Shown piece after piece: positions 25,062-35,363 of a stretch of DNA of 64,000 nucleotides. Source of the DNA: an uncultured Muribaculaceae bacterium. GTDB taxonomy: Bacteria > Bacteroidota > Bacteroidia > Bacteroidales > Muribaculaceae. The DNA is taken from the NCBI GenBank assembly GCA_905233915.1, contig CAJOFM010000009.1, forward strand, positions 1 through 64,000. Reading direction: 5' to 3'. Numbering within the stretch: the first letter of the stretch is position 1; each line of letters starts with the position of its first letter. The notes under the pieces were generated by a model, which ran no database searches, was not told the DNA's origin, and saw only the letters and a list, made by a program, of their open reading frames with translations. The position numbers and the translations under genes were made by a program.

Positions 25062-27317
25062 TTAAAATCGCAACGTGATGTGGCCCAGGGCGTTAATGCC
25101 GGCCATGGGATAGAAGCGGGGATCACTGTACAGGGTGTACTTGGCGTCCTTGCTGCCACCGGGATACATGGCGCTGGTCATCGAGTAGCCGTTGGTCTCG
25201 TAACGCTCGTCAAACAGGTTGTAGATGGTGGCGCCCACCGTGATGCTGCGGATGTGCGGCAGCTTGAAGGTGTAGGCCACGTCCAAATTGTTGACGAAGT
25301 AGGGGTCCAGAGAGTCCTCCTTGCGCTCGAAGTTGTCCAGATATTGGCGCGACACATACTGTGACTGCAGGCTCGCGGTGAAGCCCTTGTAGTCAAAGGC
25401 CAACATGCTGCCCATGGTCAGGCTCGGCGAGAAGGCGATGGTGGTGTTACCGGCCTCGATAGCGGTCTGGGTCCACATGTCGTCCCACGTGTCGGCATCA
25501 TAGTCGCTCACGTAGCCCACATAGTCCTTGATGCGGTTGCGGCTCAACGTGGCGTTCACCTGCCAGCGCAGCCAGTCGGTGAATTGCATTCCTGCCAGCA
25601 GTTCGACACCCATGCGGTAGCTGTTGGGCACGTTCTCGGCCATCAGCTCGCCAATCTCGTTGATCTTGCCGTTGAGCACGAGCTGGTCCTTATAGTTCAT
25701 GTAGTAGAAATTGGCGCCAAACAGGAAACGGCCCGAGCGGAACTCGTAACCGGCCTCCCAGTCATAGAGCTTCTCGCTCTTGGGGTGCTGCAGGAACAGT
25801 CCGTCGGTGTAGTTGTTGCGCGTGGGCTCCTTCTGGGCCACGGCAAACGAGGCATAGGCACGGTGCTTGGCGTTAATTTGCCAGTTCAGACCGGCCTTGG
25901 GGTTGAAGAAGTTGAAGGGCTCGTCGATGTCGAGGCGCTGCAGGCGCTCGGGGTCGGCTGTCCAGTCCCACTTGTCGTTGTTGCCCGTGATGCGGTAGCC
26001 GATGTGGCGGTACTGCAGGTCGGCATAGGCACTCAGGCCGCCCGTGATCACGTAGTTGCCCTTGACGTAGATGTTGATGTCGGTCTTGCGGCCGTTGTTG
26101 CGGTAATACTCATGGTCCGGAGTCAGCTGGCTGGTGTAGTTCTCCACCCAGATGACCTGGCCGTAGTGGTCGTTGCTGTAGCGGTTGATGCCGCCGCCCA
26201 GCGTGGCCGCCAGGCGCTCGCCGGTGTACTGCAGCGAGAACACACCGCCGCCAAAGCCGCTGTCCACGCACTTCTTGCGCACTAGGCTGGCCTTCTTGCT
26301 CGTGCCGGTGGCAGTCACCACGGGCTCCAGGGCATACTCCTTGAGGGTGCGGGCGTTCTTGTACTCCTGGTAGTAGCCGTAGCCGTCGGTATAGTGCAGC
26401 GCCACGTTGAGTTTCCACAAGGGATTGAAGGTCTGGTTCCAGATGAGCTGGTAGTGGGTCTGGCGGTAGATGTCCTTCTGGTCCTTGTAGAAGCCCGTCA
26501 CCTTGCCGTCGTGCTTGATCTCACCGTTGGGGTTGTAGGTGCGGTTATCCTTCAGGTCGTCGCGGCTGATGCCGTCCCAGGCGTGGTAGGTGTCTTCCTT
26601 GCCGCCAAAGGTGACAAAGCGCAGCGAGGTCTTGTCGCCAAAGTAGCCCACCTGCCCGAAGTAGCTCACCAGCTCGCTGGTGGCACGGTCGCGGTAACCG
26701 TCGCTGCCGATGTGCGACAGGCGCGCCTCGACGGCCCAGTGGTCACCCAGCAGGCCGCTGCCCACGCGCAGGGTCTCCTTGTTGGTGTTGAACGAGCCAT
26801 AGCTGCCCGACACCTCGGCATAGGGGTCGCTGGAGAAACTCTGCGTCCTCATGTTCACACTCGCGCCAAAGGCACCCGAGCCGTTGGTCGACGTGCCAGC
26901 GCCGCGCTGCACCTGGATGTCGCGCACACTCGACGCGAAGTCGGGCGTGTTCACCCAGTAGATGCTGTGGCTCTCGGCATCGTTCATCGGGATGTCATTC
27001 ACCGTGATGTTGATGCGGGTGGCATCGGTGCCGCGCACGCGCATCGACGTGTAGCCCACGCCGGCGCCCGCGTCACTGGTGGTGATCACCGAGGGCGTCA
27101 TCGTCAGCAGGAACGGGATATCCAGGCCATGGTTCTCGGCAGCCAGTTGCTTGGCCGTCACGTTAGTAAAAGCTACGGGAGTGTTGTTTGAGGCACGCGT
27201 ACCCAGCACCTCCACCTCGCTCAGCGCGATGGCGGGCACCGTGTCGGTCGCGGCAGGCTGTGCAGCCGCAACAAGGCTTGCCAGCATCGTGGCAGCCATC
27301 AATAAATTCTTCTTCAT
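25062..27317 (-). CDS. TonB-dependent receptor, thiamine-regulated
   Basis: About 751 residues from ATG 27317 (MKKNLLMAATMLASLVAAAQ, a signal peptide); the upstream open frame lies in the riboswitch. A plug domain starts at about residue 35 (ALSEVEVLGTRASN, then RVRGTDATRINITVNDIPMN), followed by the 22-strand barrel, with a typical late strand (NLDVAYTFKLP) and a C-terminus ending in Phe (LGHITLRF). It would import a thiamine compound across the outer membrane with TonB energy. The ligand is inferred from the TPP riboswitch and the adjacent PnuT. Confidence 0.92.
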   Translation of the reverse strand: MKKNLLMAATMLASLVAAAQPAATDTVPAIALSEVEVLGTRASNNTPVAFTNVTAKQLAAENHGLDIPFLLTMTPSVITTSDAGAGVGYTSMRVRGTDATRINITVNDIPMNDAESHSIYWVNTPDFASSVRDIQVQRGAGTSTNGSGAFGASVNMRTQSFSSDPYAEVSGSYGSFNTNKETLRVGSGLLGDHWAVEARLSHIGSDGYRDRATSELVSYFGQVGYFGDKTSLRFVTFGGKEDTYHAWDGISRDDLKDNRTYNPNGEIKHDGKVTGFYKDQKDIYRQTHYQLIWNQTFNPLWKLNVALHYTDGYGYYQEYKNARTLKEYALEPVVTATGTSKKASLVRKKCVDSGFGGGVFSLQYTGERLAATLGGGINRYSNDHYGQVIWVENYTSQLTPDHEYYRNNGRKTDINIYVKGNYVITGGLSAYADLQYRHIGYRITGNNDKWDWTADPERLQRLDIDEPFNFFNPKAGLNWQINAKHRAYASFAVAQKEPTRNNYTDGLFLQHPKSEKLYDWEAGYEFRSGRFLFGANFYYMNYKDQLVLNGKINEIGELMAENVPNSYRMGVELLAGMQFTDWLRWQVNATLSRNRIKDYVGYVSDYDADTWDDMWTQTAIEAGNTTIAFSPSLTMGSMLAFDYKGFTASLQSQYVSRQYLDNFERKEDSLDPYFVNNLDVAYTFKLPHIRSITVGATIYNLFDERYETNGYSMTSAMYPGGSKDAKYTLYSDPRFYPMAGINALGHITLRF

Positions 27318-27337
27318 CGATTTTTTAATTAATAAGT

Positions 27338-27418
27338 TGTTCTCTACGCCGGCATTGTCCGGATCAGATCCGATGGGTATGTTCTCAGCCCCTGATACCA
27401 TTGGGGCACCCCCAAACT
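27338..27418 (-). promoter_or_regulatory. TPP (thiamine) riboswitch, THI element
   Basis: On the minus strand: GGGGGTGCCCCA, GGGGCTGAGAACATACCC, GATCTGATCCGGACAATGCC and GGCGTAGAGA, the conserved THI-box blocks in order. It lies 21 nt ahead of the receptor start and would shut the operon off when TPP is high. Confidence 0.95.
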
Positions 27419-27433
27419 CATTGAATCACGCCG

Positions 27434-27465
27434 CAAAGGTACAACAAATTGACCACCTAATCAAA
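27434..27465 (-). promoter_or_regulatory. Promoter of the thiamine uptake operon
   Basis: Minus strand TTTG (27462-27465), 20 nt, TACCTTTG (27434-27441), just upstream of the riboswitch. Confidence 0.75.
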
Positions 27466-27522
27466 TATCAATTTACCTTATCATTAAAAATTTATAACGC
27501 ATTGGTGCAGAAGCCGCATCAC

Positions 27523-27706
27523 GTAGGGCCTCGCCTTGGCGTGGCCGTTTACCTCACGCCAAGGCGCTAAGCCGCTAAGTTTTTAGTTGAGAGTTCGTAA
27601 AATTAGCGAAATTGTCAATAAAAAACCGTAAGAGCTCAATGAGGGGAAGCCCGTCAGGGCTGGCCAGATTCTAGGCAGGAGTGGAGCGAAGCGCAACTCC
27701 TGTAAA
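27523..27706 (+). repeat. Dispersed intergenic repeat, copy C (diverged, internal part replaced)
   Basis: The first about 95 nt (to TTAGCGAAATTG) match copies A and B, the middle is unrelated, and 27674-27706 again carries the GGCAGGAGT...ACTCCTG hairpin module. The 552-nt gap 27318-27869 holds the riboswitch, its promoter and this element. After it come about 160 nt of AT-rich sequence up to the CRISPR array. Confidence 0.7.
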
Positions 27707-27869
27707 ACGACACATTCCCGACTAAAAAATTGAAAAATTTCCCGAAACCCCACCACGTGCACGCGCGGACGAAACGGACAAAACATGTCTTTGAGACCTT
27801 ATTAATGGTGTCATCTAGCACTACACATCTACAATAGTAGAAACTAATCCAAATTTACGTGATAACGCA

Positions 27870-29622
27870 TTTGCGAATTGCTTTCAAATTTAGTATCTTT
27901 GCAGTTCGACGAGCCGTGCCCGACGGTCGCCGTGCGTTGTGAATTGCTTTCAAATTTAGTATCTTTGCAGTTCAGCATGTAGTAGTGCCAGTAGTTGTCC
28001 AGTTGTGAATTGCTTTCAAATTTAGTATCTTTGCAGTATAGCGGAAATCATTGATAGTGCCAATGTTGTTGTGAATTGCTTTCAAATTTAGTATCTTTGC
28101 AGTAGGGTACCACGGCCATGACGTATTACTGGTGTTGTGAATTGCTTTCAAATTTAGTATCTTTGCAGTCAAGATACCATGTTCCTCAAAGTACTTTTTG
28201 TTGTGAATTGCTTTCAAATTTAGTATCTTTGCAGTTTAGCCACAAATCATGTAGGCTGTCGTCGCGTTGTGAATTGCTTTCAAATTTAGTATCTTTGCAG
28301 TACGAGCCACTGCGATGCGCTGCCCTCGCCAGTTGTGAATTGCTTTCAAATTTAGTATCTTTGCAGTTCAAGGATGAGACGTTGCCCGCCAACCGTGGTT
28401 GTGAATTGCTTTCAAATTTAGTATCTTTGCAGTTCTCCTGGGCGGCGACTTGCGGGTCACGGAGTTGTGAATTGCTTTCAAATTTAGTATCTTTGCAGTC
28501 CATGGGCACCTCGTGCCACTCCTCAAGTTGTTGTGAATTGCTTTCAAATTTAGTATCTTTGCAGTCGCGTGCTCGGCAACGACAAGTGGCGCACCGTTGT
28601 GAATTGCTTTCAAATTTAGTATCTTTGCAGTCAAGCGTATCGTATGACACGCGAGGAGATTGTTGTGAATTGCTTTCAAATTTAGTATCTTTGCAGTATA
28701 CTTGACAGGGACAGGATGGACAACTGGTTGTGAATTGCTTTCAAATTTAGTATCTTTGCAGTTTCATCGGCGGGGCGGTGTCCAGTACTGGAGTTGTGAA
28801 TTGCTTTCAAATTTAGTATCTTTGCAGTAGCATCCAGACAGTCACTGATAGCGCCAGCGTTGTGAATTGCTTTCAAATTTAGTATCTTTGCAGTCACGGC
28901 TGTTGTATCGTGCCGATGACCGATGTTGTGAATTGCTTTCAAATTTAGTATCTTTGCAGTCATTGTGCATCACAGGACAAAGCAGAGGCAGTTGTGAATT
29001 GCTTTCAAATTTAGTATCTTTGCAGTTCTGCGGTATTGATGACACTATCAAGGTATGTTGTGAATTGCTTTCAAATTTAGTATCTTTGCAGTCAATGGGC
29101 ACTCCGCTAAGCCGATGGGGGTAGTTGTGAATTGCTTTCAAATTTAGTATCTTTGCAGTCAGTGACCGGGCGGGGGCCGCAGTGATGCGGTTGTGAATTG
29201 CTTTCAAATTTAGTATCTTTGCAGTGGGCGCATGTATCATGGGATGGGCTAACATTGTTGTGAATTGCTTTCAAATTTAGTATCTTTGCAGTACCCTGCA
29301 CGGCTTCATCAGCGGCGACAGGTTGTGAATTGCTTTCAAATTTAGTATCTTTGCAGTGCCTCTATGCGGGCGATGTTCGGCTGTGCCGTTGTGAATTGCT
29401 TTCAAATTTAGTATCTTTGCAGTGGAGTCGCCGCTGATGAAGCCGTGCAGCGTGTTGTGAATTGCTTTCAAATTTAGTATCTTTGCAGTACGTCATGGTG
29501 TTTGTTCATGTCAAGCCTGGTTGTGAATTGCTTTCAAATTTAGTATCTTTGCAGTCCAATTTTATTTTTGTACTGCCAACGGGACTGTTGTGAATTGCTT
29601 TCAAATTTAGTATCTTTGCAGT
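27870..29622 (+). CRISPR. Type II-C CRISPR array, 27 repeats and 26 spacers
   Basis: The repeat is 36 nt and begins GTTGTGAATTGCTTTC and ends TAGTATCTTTGCAGT. Spacers are 29-31 nt, mostly 30. The first repeat (27870-27905) differs at positions 1 and 5; the other repeats appear identical. The crRNA sense is the plus strand, because the 5' half of the repeat is complementary to the plus-strand tracrRNA anti-repeat. Each repeat holds TTG (positions 2-4), 20 nt, TATCTTTG (25-32), the local promoter form, with expected start near the repeat/spacer border. The degenerate repeat is at the crRNA 5' end, so the acquisition end is probably the cas2 side. Spacers at 29293-29321 and 29424-29453 share a 24-nt core in opposite orientation. 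Confidence 0.98.
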
Positions 29623-29722
29623 ATAATAGTTCCAAAACAATGAAACATAGCCTATTACATTGTTTCTTCAAAAACAATAATTAATCTGCAAGACAAAAAA
29701 ACCTCCTAAAAGGAGGTTTTTA
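29623..29722. promoter_or_regulatory. Presumed leader of the array with inverted repeat and bidirectional terminator
   Basis: AT-rich spacer between the last repeat and cas2. AAACAATG (29635-29642) and CATTGTTT (29658-29665) form an 8-bp inverted repeat. ACCTCCT-AAA-AGGAGGT (29701-29717), flanked by an A-run and a T-run, is a terminator for both cas2 (minus) and the array (plus). Leader status is inferred from the position of the degenerate repeat at the other end. Confidence 0.6.
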
Positions 29723-29726
29723 TTTT

Positions 29727-30080
29727 CTAAAAGATTTCAAGTTGTACTCCAGCCAATTGTTTTTCTTTGACTGAATTGCCATAAAAAAGTTCCATTTCAC
29801 CAAATTGCTTATCAGTCACACATAATATTCCCACATTACCCGAAGGTGGCAACATGGTTTTTACACGTCTAATGTGAGCCTCAGCATTTTCTCTGCTGGT
29901 ACAATGCCTCAAGTAGATGGAAAACTGGAACATGATGAATCCATCACCCATGATGTCTTTGCGGAACTTTGCTGCATCTTTGCGTTGCTTCTTTGTCTCG
30001 GTGGGCAGATCATAAAAAACCATTATCCACATGATACGATATTGGCTAAATCGTTCTTGTTTGATGAGCATGAGGGACAC
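29727..30080 (-). CDS. cas2: CRISPR-associated endoribonuclease Cas2
   Basis: 117 residues. The core MWIMVFYDLPTETKKQRKD carries the Cas2 Asp in YDLP, followed by GFIMFQFSIYLRHC, as in type II-C Cas2. The annotated ATG at 30080 gives a 16-residue extension; ATGs at 30071 and 30032 are alternatives. It follows cas1 by 5 nt. With Cas1 it forms the spacer integration complex. Confidence 0.97.
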   Translation of the reverse strand: MSLMLIKQERFSQYRIMWIMVFYDLPTETKKQRKDAAKFRKDIMGDGFIMFQFSIYLRHCTSRENAEAHIRRVKTMLPPSGNVGILCVTDKQFGEMELFYGNSVKEKQLAGVQLEIF

Positions 30081-30085
30081 TTATT

Positions 30086-31018
30086 CTATAGTTCGGGGTA
30101 AATCAGACATTTTGCCTCTCCTGAGAAACATTTATATAATGATGCCACTGTCTGGTCAACAGCAACCATAAGAGGACGGTCATGGCCATTGATGTGTACG
30201 TCAATTGTGGGTAGAGACAGCAGCTCACGCTTAATCTCGAGAGTGAGTTCTCCTAAATCCTTATGTCTCGCTATGATTCTCCTAACCAAACCATCAACCA
30301 CTGGTCTGTATGGCTCCATGATATCGTCAGTTAGGCAATAGGCATTATAACGATTGTGATGATGAATACCTATAGAAGGCAACAATCCTGCTGCAACAAT
30401 ACTGCGTGCAACAACAGCACGCAGAATCGCATAGCCGTAATTCAAGAGGTTGTTAGGTGGTTCACCATCTCGTCCTCGTGTAAATCCAGAAAACTCGGGA
30501 AAAATATTTTTCCAATAATAGGCTGCAGCACGGGCTTCCAGATTGCCGGCATCATCACTGCGCACTTGCTTCGCCCAGGCATGCATGTTGCCATTATCGG
30601 CTCCGACAAGACATTCCAAATTAGCTGCTTGATTGGCAATCTTGGCCTGAACAGTCTGTTGCCACAACTGCTTACGCAAAGGTTTTGGGCACTCTACCTG
30701 CTGCCGAGAGCGTTCGCCCATTAAAATATTGCCTTCCATAGGCAGCATCAATGCTGTAGGATGATGAGTGCTATCACAAGTTATGAGCGCACAATTATTC
30801 TCGGCCAAACATTCAAGCAAACCTTGAGTAACCGTGATGCGCTTGTCATCAAGAATGACCACGCCAATATTCTCAATGGGAAATGTGCGCTCGGCTTCCT
30901 TCTTGAAGGTTTCGGATAACGACCCATTCTTCTCGACCTGGGGCAGCCTTAACACCATCTGCCCATTACGCAGACTCAGATAGGCCGGGTTGCCGAAATA
31001 TAGCGTTTTCTTCACCAT
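30086..31018 (-). CDS. cas1: CRISPR-associated integrase Cas1
   Basis: 310 residues, normal for type II Cas1. N-terminal beta domain (KKTLYFGNPAYLSLRNGQMV). The C-terminal helical domain carries the metal-binding residues: Glu in GNLEARAAAYYWK, His in SIGIHHHNRYNAY, and Asp/Glu in DDIMEPYRPVVD. It starts 6 nt after the cas9 stop codon. No csn2 or cas4 is present, which defines subtype II-C. Confidence 0.98.
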   Translation of the reverse strand: MVKKTLYFGNPAYLSLRNGQMVLRLPQVEKNGSLSETFKKEAERTFPIENIGVVILDDKRITVTQGLLECLAENNCALITCDSTHHPTALMLPMEGNILMGERSRQQVECPKPLRKQLWQQTVQAKIANQAANLECLVGADNGNMHAWAKQVRSDDAGNLEARAAAYYWKNIFPEFSGFTRGRDGEPPNNLLNYGYAILRAVVARSIVAAGLLPSIGIHHHNRYNAYCLTDDIMEPYRPVVDGLVRRIIARHKDLGELTLEIKRELLSLPTIDVHINGHDRPLMVAVDQTVASLYKCFSGEAKCLIYPEL

Positions 31019-31024
31019 GAGTCG

Positions 31025-34000
31025 TTAATACTCTCCCACATGAACGATCTTGCCTATGTGGTTGAGTCTCACTTTTACTATTCCTTTGAGACCATTGGCA
31101 TTTCTTATTCTGAAAAATGCCACTCCTTGCGGCAGTGAGTTTCCAGCGGTCACGCTGGTCTCATACTGATGCCTAAAGAAATAGTCATTTGATGTCAATT
31201 TCTGCACTCTAAACAGATGAGGAACTATCAGGGCATAGTTGGACTCGTCCATGAGATCTATTTCGCTGGGCACGAAGCCATGTTCCTCATCAGGAAAGAC
31301 AAAATATTCGTTTTGTTTCATCGTGAACTTGAATTTCCATCCCTCGCACTCGTTATGACGCTTATCAACTATGGGCATATCATTATTGATTCGGACAATT
31401 GCTTCATAGTAAGAAACGATTTTCTCTTGCCAGTTGCCTGCAGCATCCTCATAGATAGCCACATGATGATTATTGCTTGTGCTAACGAAATCAACAGGCA
31501 TTGTCTTTCCATCGTCAACGGTCATGACACTTCCGTCACGGTTCAACTTGTCATGCAAGGGGGTTGCCACAGCCACACCAGTGATGGTTACCCTCTTGAT
31601 GGCAATGCCTTTATCCTGATTAAGCCAGATGGGATTTTCATCAAGGTTACTGAAAGCCTTATTTGCATCTTGACCACATTCGTCATATCTGCGTTGTAAG
31701 ATATCCCTCACCTTACGATCAACTACCTTAGATATGTTTAATGAAGGATCGATGGGTTTGCGTACGGTATAATAGGTTTCAAGCCACACAAGCTTCACAC
31801 TCTCAGGCACCTGTTGTGAATGCGCTGCGTCGGTATAGATGGGATTTACCGACAAAGCATTCTTCCCTGTGAAGGCTTTTTTGGCATTGCCTCCACATTC
31901 ATCCAACCTATTCATGAGCGCTTCTCGATAGTCCTTACGAGCAACCATTGCAATCCGCTGGGCATCGAACTTACCCGACACTTTCTCCACTTTGGTGACA
32001 TAACGGTGTCGTTGACCATAAATAGTCTCGTTGTGCAACTGGGCGCGTGGCGTGAGCGTCACTTGACGAACGTTGCTTCCTGTCACATGGTTCACATTAG
32101 GCGTAGCGACTTTATTCTTAGCCTTGATGGAAACTAAGATATCTTCCATGTGTTCAAGAGCGCTTTTGCGGAATTTATCAAGTGGGATTGGAGGCATGAA
32201 ACGACCAGTCTTTTTATTGATAAGTTTTGAACGAAGAGCCATGACCTCGGCATGCAATTCATCTTCATGTGCACTCAAATGATTAAGATAATTCACATGC
32301 TCCAAACGGGTGAATGCAACAGTGAGTGCATCCATCGCATGATGACGATGGTCATTGCGTTTCGACCAGTCCTTGATGATTTTCACTTCTTGCCCATTGC
32401 GGTTGATGTAAGTTTCAACTCGTTCCAGTTTTTTATATTTGGGCAAGTTGAGTTCCTTCATCATGTCAACAAGTTGCCAATCCTCACGCAGACGGGCTGT
32501 GATAGCGCCGATCGTGGGCACAACAGTGCGGCACACTTGCATCAGTATCTCTTTAGCCTTGCGGGCAATATATTGCGTATCCGCAAGGTCACGATTCAAA
32601 AAGTCCTCGGGTATTTCTTGTTCGGTAGTGATAAGATTCTTGTATTTCTTGTTTGTGCCATTCTTGTTCTTGCTATCATACAAGAAAGCAATGCGCTGGC
32701 GGTATTGCTCAGCACCCACTTCACCGTATTTCTCAAGAACATAGTCCATTGCAGTCTTGTTACCTTTCTCTTTATTAGCCTCGCTTGTTTCAAGAGTCTT
32801 ATTGGATTGTGAATCATCAAACAGTTTGGCCTGAGGAATAATGTGCTCTATCTCAAACCTATTACTAAACAGTTGTTCACGGGGGATGTATGTGTCAGAG
32901 TACAGGGTATGGAAACCATTGTCCTTCAACTCTAAATACAGCCTGTAACGGATGATATCATTGCGACTTGGATGGGCGATTCCAAACTGCTCCTGCAGCT
33001 CCTTGATGTATTTTTCATTCTCCTTTGTGCGTCTTTCGATTGATTGGGAAGCCCTATCGCGTTGGTCGCGGGTCTGTTTGAGGCTACGAGCCATCTCCAC
33101 ATGTATCTCATCAAACCGTTTGGTGCCATCACGCATTACGCCATATTCCTGCATCAGGGCATTCACCACATGAATCATTTGGTTCAAAATCTTTTCAACC
33201 ACAGGATTGCGCAAGCTGTTTCTAGGTAGGACTTCAAGAGCCGCTTGCAAGGAGCGAGAATCAAGTTCCTCGCGTGTTAGAGACTGAGCTGAATGCTTAT
33301 ATCCAGCCGCAACACATGCGTCGCTATACTTCTTGCCATCCAGCAAGTGAGGCATGATGTTCTTGATGGCCTTGGAACTCAACGAGCCATAGTCTTGCTC
33401 AAATCGAACGGAGGCAATAACAGCTGCATATTCTTCATTTAACCCAGTGAGTTCTTGTATATGCTCTTTCAAGCGGACATCCCCTGTCTCGCTATTATCT
33501 CCCTCGTAGGAGTAAAGCAGGTGCCAAAGCCTATAGGCGGGCTGGTCAAGGTAATTGTCCAGCTGCTCGGGGTTGAACTCCAAAAAGTCGGTATTTGCGC
33601 CAATGGCTTTGAACACTTGAGTTATAAACTGCATCTTGGAGGCATAGTCCAATTTATCAAAATCATCAACGTCATGGCCACTCCATTCAAGAATTTGCTT
33701 GTAGGCACTGATTAATTGCACCTGAGTCGTATTGCCTTGTAAGGACTTGTGGTTTGTCGAATATTTCTTCGAATTGAGGCCAAGTAACTTTATCATTGCA
33801 GTATTATTCAACTCATTGTTCACAGTTAACTCATTGAACAAGAGTTGACGCTGTTCTTTCGTGAGAAGTGTTGTTTGGCCTGTATTCTTATCCTCGATGA
33901 CTACATTATTCAATTCTTGACTGACCTTAAAGGCCTGGAACAATGGTGAGTTCTTGGGGCACACGCGTGGTCCAGTCATCACCTTCTTAGACTTGCCATC

Positions 34001-35164
34001 AACCTGTACTGTGATTTCCTTACCCTCAAGTTCGCAGAACGAGATAAGGCCTTTCTTAGACTTCAGCTTGCGTTGATAGAAGATAATGGTATCACGCATT
34101 TCCTCTTTAAGTTCGTCGGTCAATTCAGGATGGAACTGTCGCTGAGTCTCCCAAATTTTATTAAACTCATTGAGGTAGTCCTGGCGATAAAAGACACGAT
34201 TCTTCAAGCTGAAGTGAGGGTCAGCATCCAATTTCTGCATCAGATATTGACCCACAGTTAGTTTTTTGAAATACAATTCCTTGCTGTGGTCACTGATTCG
34301 GCCCAGATAGCCACTGGAGTTGGCGATATTGCCATTGATGTCGCAGAGCACTGCAACGACTTCTTCGATGGGCAGTTGCTTGCTCGGAGCCTCACTGCGC
34401 CACCTATAGGACACCTGTAAGCGCGTTTTGCGGTCTTTGACAGTAGCCGATGAGATGCTTTTAGCGCCATTAAAGATCCTTGAGGTGTCGTTTTTGCCAC
34501 GTCCCGTTACCTTATTCCGCATTTCATCATCGAGAATACCAGGATAAAACTGTGCCTGGAAATCCCAAATCGCATTAAACTCGGCTCTCAAGTCTGACTG
34601 GTAAAAAGTGGGAATGTACCTCTTTCCTTGTTGAATAATCTCATAAACTAATTGGCCAGGGGTCAGATGCTCGTCATATAACCTGCGGGCAATCGACATT
34701 CCGTCAATCAGTTGTCCGTCTTCTTGCTTATCTGCTTTGCGGTTACTTTTATAGCCACGTTTTTTATTGATCATGAGCAAGACTCGTGAGAGTTGTTCAA
34801 GCGTGATTTCTTCAGTAGCGGCTTTAGTTCGTAACCGGTAAGTCTCAAACGTGGTATTATTGCCATCCTCATATAAGAGGGTATCCTTTGAGATAAAGCC
34901 TGTTTTCAAGAGCAAGTCGATAAGATGCTTGCGACGCTGTTTATATCGTTGAAGATTAATACGCATGCCATGCTTTTGATTGCGCAAAGCTGTTGAAGAA
35001 ACACTCTTGCCTTTTTCAAAATCATTCTTTTCTTGACTGTCTATTGGAGCGATGCGTACACCCATTTTAATAATTTGGGATTTTTCGCTTGATTCTTCCG
35101 CTTGGTCAACAACAGCCCAGCCGATACTACTTGTTCCCAGGTCTAGTCCTAATATTCTTTTCAT
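31025..35164 (-). CDS. cas9: CRISPR-associated endonuclease Cas9, type II-C
   Basis: 1379 residues, within the range of the long Cas9s of Bacteroidetes. RuvC-I is at the N-terminus (ILGLDLGTSSIGWAVVD, Asp 8), followed by an Arg-rich bridge helix (RMNLQRYKQRRK-type, here RINLQRYKQRRKHL) and the recognition lobe. RuvC-II is IHVEMARSLKQT (Glu about 691), HNH is EIEHIIPQAKLFDDS (His about 774), RuvC-III is DHRHHAMDALTVAF (about 940-950), and a C-terminal PAM-interacting region follows. All catalytic motifs are present, so it should be an active RNA-guided nuclease. PAM preference cannot be read from the sequence. First gene of the cas9-cas1-cas2 operon; codon and base use are more AT-rich than the flanking genes, which suggests transfer as a unit. 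Confidence 0.99.
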   Translation of the reverse strand: MKRILGLDLGTSSIGWAVVDQAEESSEKSQIIKMGVRIAPIDSQEKNDFEKGKSVSSTALRNQKHGMRINLQRYKQRRKHLIDLLLKTGFISKDTLLYEDGNNTTFETYRLRTKAATEEITLEQLSRVLLMINKKRGYKSNRKADKQEDGQLIDGMSIARRLYDEHLTPGQLVYEIIQQGKRYIPTFYQSDLRAEFNAIWDFQAQFYPGILDDEMRNKVTGRGKNDTSRIFNGAKSISSATVKDRKTRLQVSYRWRSEAPSKQLPIEEVVAVLCDINGNIANSSGYLGRISDHSKELYFKKLTVGQYLMQKLDADPHFSLKNRVFYRQDYLNEFNKIWETQRQFHPELTDELKEEMRDTIIFYQRKLKSKKGLISFCELEGKEITVQVDGKSKKVMTGPRVCPKNSPLFQAFKVSQELNNVVIEDKNTGQTTLLTKEQRQLLFNELTVNNELNNTAMIKLLGLNSKKYSTNHKSLQGNTTQVQLISAYKQILEWSGHDVDDFDKLDYASKMQFITQVFKAIGANTDFLEFNPEQLDNYLDQPAYRLWHLLYSYEGDNSETGDVRLKEHIQELTGLNEEYAAVIASVRFEQDYGSLSSKAIKNIMPHLLDGKKYSDACVAAGYKHSAQSLTREELDSRSLQAALEVLPRNSLRNPVVEKILNQMIHVVNALMQEYGVMRDGTKRFDEIHVEMARSLKQTRDQRDRASQSIERRTKENEKYIKELQEQFGIAHPSRNDIIRYRLYLELKDNGFHTLYSDTYIPREQLFSNRFEIEHIIPQAKLFDDSQSNKTLETSEANKEKGNKTAMDYVLEKYGEVGAEQYRQRIAFLYDSKNKNGTNKKYKNLITTEQEIPEDFLNRDLADTQYIARKAKEILMQVCRTVVPTIGAITARLREDWQLVDMMKELNLPKYKKLERVETYINRNGQEVKIIKDWSKRNDHRHHAMDALTVAFTRLEHVNYLNHLSAHEDELHAEVMALRSKLINKKTGRFMPPIPLDKFRKSALEHMEDILVSIKAKNKVATPNVNHVTGSNVRQVTLTPRAQLHNETIYGQRHRYVTKVEKVSGKFDAQRIAMVARKDYREALMNRLDECGGNAKKAFTGKNALSVNPIYTDAAHSQQVPESVKLVWLETYYTVRKPIDPSLNISKVVDRKVRDILQRRYDECGQDANKAFSNLDENPIWLNQDKGIAIKRVTITGVAVATPLHDKLNRDGSVMTVDDGKTMPVDFVSTSNNHHVAIYEDAAGNWQEKIVSYYEAIVRINNDMPIVDKRHNECEGWKFKFTMKQNEYFVFPDEEHGFVPSEIDLMDESNYALIVPHLFRVQKLTSNDYFFRHQYETSVTAGNSLPQGVAFFRIRNANGLKGIVKVRLNHIGKIVHVGEY

Positions 35165-35247: not shown

Positions 35248-35278
35248 TTTGACATTATAATGAAAAGTAGTATCTTTG
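35248..35278 (+). promoter_or_regulatory. tracrRNA promoter, similar to the repeat-borne promoters
   Basis: TTTG (35248-35251), 19 nt, TATCTTTG (35271-35278). The 14 nt TAGTATCTTTGCAG at 35268-35281 are identical to repeat positions 22-35. Confidence 0.8.
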
Positions 35279-35282
35279 CAGA

Positions 35283-35363
35283 ACAAATTTGAAGCAATTC
35301 ACAATAAGGAACAATTCCGTTGTGAAAACATCAAGAGCGGGACAATGTCTCGTTCTTTTTTTT
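35283..35363 (+). ncRNA. tracrRNA
   Basis: The anti-repeat AAATTTGAAGCAATTCACAA (35285-35304) pairs with the 5' half of the crRNA repeat, with one bulged U on the crRNA side. A short GGAA-CAA-TTCC stem follows (about 35308-35318) and may be the nexus. A 9-bp terminator hairpin (GAGCGGGAC / GTCTCGTTC, 35335-35355) ends in eight Ts (35356-35363). The 5' end is estimated from the promoter. It is transcribed away from cas9. It would guide crRNA processing with RNase III and crRNA loading into Cas9. Confidence 0.92.

Follow-up and report, generated by a model that had tools for sequence, protein, structure and literature searches.

Each repeat of the CRISPR array described here probably has two roles, as the handle that pairs with the tracrRNA and as a housekeeping promoter for the next spacer. 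We put the probability of this reading, which is drawn from sequence analysis, at roughly 80%. The array lies in the window, that is, the whole 64,000-nucleotide stretch of DNA that was analysed, which belongs to a Bacteroidales genome of 2.8 Mb in 24 contigs. The promoter reading appears likely both here and in the majority of the Bacteroidales II-C arrays that were compared; in its exact-box form it is not universal in the phylum.

Promoter-like elements lie at a fixed place in every repeat

The array and the features around it are as follows.

27870..29622, + strand: CRISPR array of 27 repeats of 36 nt with spacers of 29-31 nt; the crRNA strand is +
27871..27873, + strand: TTG resembling a -33 element in the first repeat (there part of TTTG), at the same place in 27/27 repeats
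27894..27901, + strand: -7 box TATCTTTG of the first repeat, at repeat positions 25-32 in 27/27
29623..29726, no strand: leader side, from the array to cas2, with a terminator-like hairpin and T-run on both strands at about 29698-29726 (from folds)
29727..30080, - strand: cas2 (TIGR01573, 1.8e-19; PADLOC Cas2_II)
30086..31018, - strand: cas1, type II (TIGR03639, 2.4e-86)
31025..35164, - strand: cas9, 1379 aa (TIGR01865, 1.1e-150)
35249..35281, + strand: putative tracrRNA promoter, TTG-N19-TATCTTTGCAG, with the box at 35271-35278 and a matrix score of 21.7
35282..35362, + strand: tracrRNA candidate, an anti-repeat followed by a terminator hairpin and T-run, with predicted ends

The original prediction placed a TTG at positions 2-4 and a box at positions 25-32 of the 36-nt repeat, 20 nt apart, and TTG-N20-TATCTTTG was found in exactly this arrangement in 27/27 repeats. 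All 27 boxes have the form TAnnTTTG, the -7 form of sigma-ABfr promoters, and inside every repeat of the window the elements stand at a fixed distance from the spacer. Both elements are kept in the first repeat, whose only departures from the other 26 are at position 1 (G to T) and position 5 (T to C). As a result of the base that precedes it, the TTG reads GTTG in 26/27 repeats and TTTG in the first.

Apart from cas9, cas1 and cas2, no gene-like ORF lies between the array and position 35164, and the operon contains no csn2 or cas4. This is the gene content of subtype II-C, although the Cas9 models used cannot tell subtypes A, B and C apart. Beyond cas9, the nearest ORF (35513) has a match to a C45 hydrolase model that falls short of the curated cut-off. 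Three exact scans of viral_contigs for protospacers, intended as a check on the strand, gave no match (pieces of 4/26 spacers were covered, one piece being common to two). Over 24 nt, the spacer at 29293-29321 is the reverse complement of the one at 29424-29453; the two crRNAs would therefore target a single stretch from opposite strands and could pair with each other. Elsewhere in the window, a TPP riboswitch (RF00059, 63.8 bits) lies at 27323-27423 (-), and the ORF that follows it resembles a TonB-dependent receptor on visual inspection. The listed start of this ORF (27401) falls within the riboswitch, and the true start is therefore probably the downstream methionine of MKKNLL.

The repeat matches promoter-like sites of the host genome

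To avoid leaning on a remembered consensus, the promoter was learned from the genome itself, using 300 kb in 15 stretches together with the window (364 kb in all). In the 32 kb that precede 182 called gene starts, with array regions excluded, TAnnTTTG occurred 105 times in the sense direction compared to 50 times in antisense. The distance from an upstream TTG peaked at N=20 (22 sites) and N=19 (12) among the 98 TAnnTTTG sites with room for one, and the three bases that follow the motif ahead of genes were preferentially C (70/105), A (47) and G (46), in this order. The window repeat has both features of these promoter-like sites, namely N=20, the commonest spacing in the genome, and CAG after the box. 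A scoring matrix trained on the 98 sites, which lie outside the CRISPR locus, gave the repeat a score of 20.6 (26 repeats). This is above 83% of the training sites, and it was reached at 25 other places in ~728,000 positions and by 0/20,000 dinucleotide shuffles. The first repeat scored highest in the array (23.3) because its G1-to-T change creates TTTG.

We also located TTG-N19-21-TAnnTTTG elsewhere in the window. Twelve sites were found, one of them antisense inside the array (28245-) and 11 outside it, compared to a mean of 1.5 and a maximum of 5 when the window, with the array taken out, was dinucleotide-shuffled 40 times. The putative tracrRNA promoter (35249+) is one of the 11. By simple ORF calls, 7 of the remaining 10 lie directly ahead of a gene; 35453 is just ahead of ORF 35513. 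The earlier statement that the same form precedes at least eight ordinary genes is a fair one, and the four places it named were recovered (14345-, 27464-, 35453+ and 41208+).

These data bear on the alternative that a single precursor is transcribed from an outside promoter, with the repeat boxes silent or minor. Read-through from upstream is possible, and TAnnTTTG was found in the 150 nt upstream of 8/41 exact-box Bacteroidales arrays (shuffles give 2.4, and the opposite strand has 9) and of 3/5 Bacteroidales arrays without an exact box. The other 33/41 exact-box arrays have no such upstream motif, however, and the 5' flank of the window array (27300-27869) holds no comparable site, the best scoring 4.2 compared to 20.6 for the repeat. 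We consider transcription from outside the array quite improbable.

The tracrRNA candidate has a putative promoter of the same class

The anti-repeat of the tracrRNA candidate is complementary to the 5' two thirds of the repeat, with a predicted duplex of -25.2 kcal/mol in which five of the eight box bases are unpaired. A tracrRNA search upstream of cas9 in 114 loci yielded 96 accepted candidates. TAnnTTTG was present just upstream of the anti-repeat in 59/63 Bacteroidales candidates and 9/33 others. Among the 68 candidates with the box, it ends 3-5 nt before the anti-repeat in 55 and is preceded by a TTG at N 19-20 in 49; an equally large stretch further upstream holds the box in 5. Twelve different nn pairs occur in these tracrRNA promoters, and nn is identical in the repeat box and the tracrRNA box in only 5/53 loci, so neither box is a copy of the other.

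The exact box is common in Bacteroidales and rare in the rest of the phylum

A first set of relatives comprised 154 loci plus the window. An array was detected in 130/155; once three duplicates were removed, cas1 was located in 126/127. In 125/126 the array is found on the downstream side of cas1 (the exception is L072), and its orientation by repeat sequence is opposite to the cas genes in these 126 arrays except L031. Three arrays (L194, L199 and L201) were oriented by gene order, with which their tracrRNA candidates agree. The array L031:12150-12491 is the only one of the 126 whose repeats run in the cas1 direction; L290-L293, from the second set, are similar by their ends. The exact box was found at the expected place in 66/73 Bacteroidales arrays. 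Outside this order but in the same phylum, 7/53 arrays had the exact box, 16 a relaxed form and 30 none. The distance from TTG to box in distinct exact-box repeats ranged over N 16-23, with N=19 in 43/70.

A second set of 60 Bacteroidales regions from 59 genomes was chosen from the 136/393 genomes with a Cas1 match. After 2 duplicates and 8 regions without an array were set aside, 50 remained, which were oriented by gene order only. The exact box was present in 34/50, a relaxed form in 4 and none in 12. These 12 include L303, a partial consensus that actually holds TATCTTTG, and five loci (L290-L294) whose 36-nt repeats differ in sequence from the rest. Four of these (L290-L293) seem to be reversed; none of the five has the exact box either way. 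The original prediction had called for a search of other Bacteroidetes II-C repeats for this motif, and the exact box is indeed present in most of the Bacteroidales arrays and absent from most others in the phylum. The counter-evidence that it named, related repeats that keep pairing ability but lack the -7 box, is found in part: the exact box is missing from most of the repeats outside Bacteroidales and from one group within the order (L028, L029, L032, L033 and L035) that has CATCTTTG or CGTCTTTG instead. As a control, other CRISPR types (assigned by sequence) in the phylum were searched; an array was present at 24/30 other Cas2 loci, and the motif was found in 0/14 of their distinct repeats on either strand.

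Two further kinds of repeat were noted. The three arrays from one distant genus (g115; L194, L199 and L201) have TAGATTTG, TAATTTTG and TAGTTTTG, which within the box differ at nn only, with N=16. A number of 36-nt repeats without TAnnTTTG (L180, L185, L187-L189, L191-L193, L195-L198, L200 and L202-L206) end in GATATT, TAGATT or TACATT at the spacer. The -10 element of the Neisseria repeat is positioned at the repeat end that adjoins the spacer, and these ends are possibly another promoter element in the same place.

Substitutions in the box follow the pattern of a -7 element

Since the repeats are homologous, raw counts prove little, and we therefore counted changes on a Cas1 tree. The tree held 114 loci; L031, L136 and L303 had been excluded from the start, and six more were dropped for a poor or short repeat. 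Changes in the box columns T,A,n,n,T,T,T,G numbered 5,2,18,10,1,0,3,5, compared to 11-29 in the eight columns before the box and 30-42 in each of the seven after it. The alignment used for these counts took the best match to the box as its anchor and so is biased towards the box. A MAFFT alignment of 115 loci without box anchoring gave 5,1,17,12,1,1,5,6, with a difference between nn and the fixed positions at p ~2e-7. The nn positions change about five times as often as the fixed ones. Two fixed, two freer and four fixed positions are what is expected of a TAnnTTTG -7 element, suggesting that the substitution pattern across Bacteroidales is the footprint of one.

The footprint also helps to weigh two other explanations of the box. 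It is very improbable, in our view, that the motif is a functionless by-product of an AT-rich repeat inherited by descent. The homology of the repeats across the order means that counts overstate the number of independent cases, but uneven rates within the box and a fast-changing tail directly after it would not be expected without selection. A box that serves mainly as a recognition element for Cas1-Cas2 or another protein, with its -7 likeness secondary and transcription starting from elsewhere, is unlikely. This explanation would account for nn being mostly TC in the repeats (T in 95/114, C in 102/114), less varied than in the tracrRNA promoters, though a -7 box does not need it; the constancy suggests that the box is constrained by more than a promoter role or that ancestry weighs heavily. 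Other conserved blocks of the repeat (5' GTTGTGA and 3' terminal ACA) probably do serve integration and pairing. Recognition would not account for the match to the host's TTG spacing and to CAG after the box, for nn changing more often than the fixed positions, for the variable distance between the box and the 5' TTG, or for the absence of the motif from the 14 other repeats of the phylum. Among these 114 repeats, nearly all of which are of the 47-nt kind, just 34 have C directly after the box, so CAG is not conserved in them.

The prediction of a Bacteroidetes promoter in each repeat is supported by sequence evidence: the elements are well formed and match the host's own promoter type, no comparable site lies in the 5' flank, the repeat is predicted to pair with the anti-repeat, and the box has the footprint of a -7 element.

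Retention of the box in the oldest repeats

The first repeat of an array is its oldest and has no pairing job, yet under the promoter reading it must keep the box. In II-C arrays the first repeat is described as decaying mostly in its first 15 nt (PMC12080349). Among 29 degenerate first repeats with the exact box in the first set, the fixed box positions had changed at 0/174 compared to 31/684 in the rest of the 3' half (p=0.001), and box and tail differed (p=0.014). The second set, with 21 degenerate first repeats, did not reproduce this: the box had changed at 4/126 compared to 40/496 (p=0.08), and box and tail did not differ (p=0.74). The identity cut-off used in detection had also concealed repeats that were decayed past the box. 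A search by the tail only, in 77 arrays, removed this bias, and TAnnTTTG was kept in 45/53 degenerate first repeats and lost in 8/53. Truncation blocks reached into or past the box in 9/42 cases, with no clear departure from a uniform spread. Of 20 first repeats without the 5' TTG, 13 have no TTG at N18-22.

In the first repeats of many Bacteroidales II-C arrays, the first 4-25 nt are often replaced, with a sharp boundary and an intact sequence beyond it. Such sharp replacement points to recombination more than to decay by single changes. Exchange between repeats would, in addition, refresh the 3' portion of the first repeat. Taken together, the first repeats speak clearly neither for nor against a promoter.

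Transcription would start at or near the spacer border

We infer the use of the repeat elements by RNA polymerase, the exact start and the processing of the transcripts as follows. Each repeat would act as the tracrRNA-pairing handle of the upstream crRNA and as a housekeeping promoter of the sigma-ABfr type, TTG-N20-TATCTTTGCAGT, for the downstream spacer. Motif 1 of Bacteroides thetaiotaomicron is described as centred at -7 (PMC7366714), which would place +1 about four bases past the box, at repeat position 36 on the spacer border. The gap of 3-5 nt between box and anti-repeat in the tracrRNA candidates also points to a start about 4 nt past the box. The RNA would then begin at about the last repeat base or the first spacer base, and transcription would run towards the leader and cas2, where the hairpin with its T-run could end it. 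The tracrRNA would come from the promoter of the same class upstream of cas9. Initiation would set the 5' end of the crRNA, leaving only 3' processing, in the downstream repeat.

The start at the repeat/spacer border that was originally proposed fits the 36-nt repeat but not most of the relatives, which have 47-nt repeats. These usually have 16 nt after the box (44/70 distinct exact-box repeats), so that their RNAs would open with about 12-13 nt of repeat. The nearest relative (G020, with a Cas9 76% identical) has 77-nt units, like the 47-nt class, suggesting that the window repeat is a shortened form. A tentative explanation, which we hold to be possible but somewhat doubtful, is that the 36-nt repeat is a 47-nt repeat that has lost its 11-nt fast-changing tail, about one helical turn. 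The -7 box would thereby have been joined to the terminal integration motif, with CAGT serving both integration and the CAG of the promoter. If so, loss of the tail brought the RNA start to the spacer border from a point about 12-13 nt within the repeat, the crRNAs of the window need no 5' trimming, and the promoters of repeat and tracrRNA are both tuned to the host sigma factor. The long and short repeats would then form a natural pair in which the importance of repeat sequence at the 5' end of a II-C guide could be studied.

Comparison with known systems

The promoter reading would extend to Bacteroidales, with the box of the host sigma factor, a II-C feature known by experiment in Campylobacter and Neisseria. 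It predicts crRNA start points in Bacteroides-type Cas9 systems and suggests that the need to maintain a promoter helps to shape CRISPR repeats. By implication, an array of guides that uses native Bacteroidales repeats may work without a promoter outside it.

Repeat-borne promoters in II-C systems are already known, and a role for the TTG in Flavobacterium repeats was proposed in 2021. What appears to be new here, from the sequence evidence, is the -7 box, its fit to promoter-like sites of the host, the footprint on the tree and the matching tracrRNA promoters. A statement on a TAnnTTTG box in repeats was not found in searches of the open-licence PMC literature.

Within the phylum, the closest precedent is Flavobacterium columnare, for whose II-C array the repeat TTG was proposed as a -33 promoter element for each spacer (Hoikkala et al. 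2021, PMC8092290). In the same account, transcripts within the array run towards the leader, as judged from only eight reads. The TTG proposal is restated for F. psychrophilum (PMC10309648). Both species share with the window the phylum and the repeat TTG, but the available text of these papers names no -7 box for their repeats and gives TAnnTTTG only for the cas9 gene of F. psychrophilum. The sigma-ABfr promoters of Bacteroides are described with TAnnTTTG centred at -7 and TTTG at about -33 (PMC7366714). In contrast, the promoter of the window sits in a CRISPR repeat, and its -33 element reads GTTG, with TTTG only in the first repeat. Further afield, the II-C repeat of Clostridium cellulolyticum has a promoter-like element at its 3' end, and crRNAs are reported from every spacer (PMC7038990). 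According to that source, this element is of the extended -10 type and was noted by sequence, and the small RNAs came from E. coli carrying the locus.

The best-established cases are the II-C systems of Campylobacter jejuni, where repeat-borne promoters were described with mapped starts (Dugar et al. 2013, PMC3656092), and of Neisseria meningitidis (Zhang et al. 2013, as cited in PMC5006608, PMC7038990 and PMC5052741). The window resembles both in that every repeat has a promoter (here a putative one) towards its 3' end and the crRNA 5' end is set by initiation (here predicted), in having only cas9, cas1 and cas2, and in new spacers joining the 3' end of the array. It differs, as far as the published descriptions set them apart, in the box, which is of the housekeeping -10 type in C. 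jejuni and N. meningitidis and, from sequence alone, of the Bacteroidetes -33/-7 type here. The original prediction took this difference as a sign of a separate origin, which our analysis does not support. An array antisense to the cas genes, a leader at the 3' end and a promoter at the 3' end of the repeat make up the general II-C layout, and since this layout is shared, it would be simpler to suppose that an inherited promoter was retuned.
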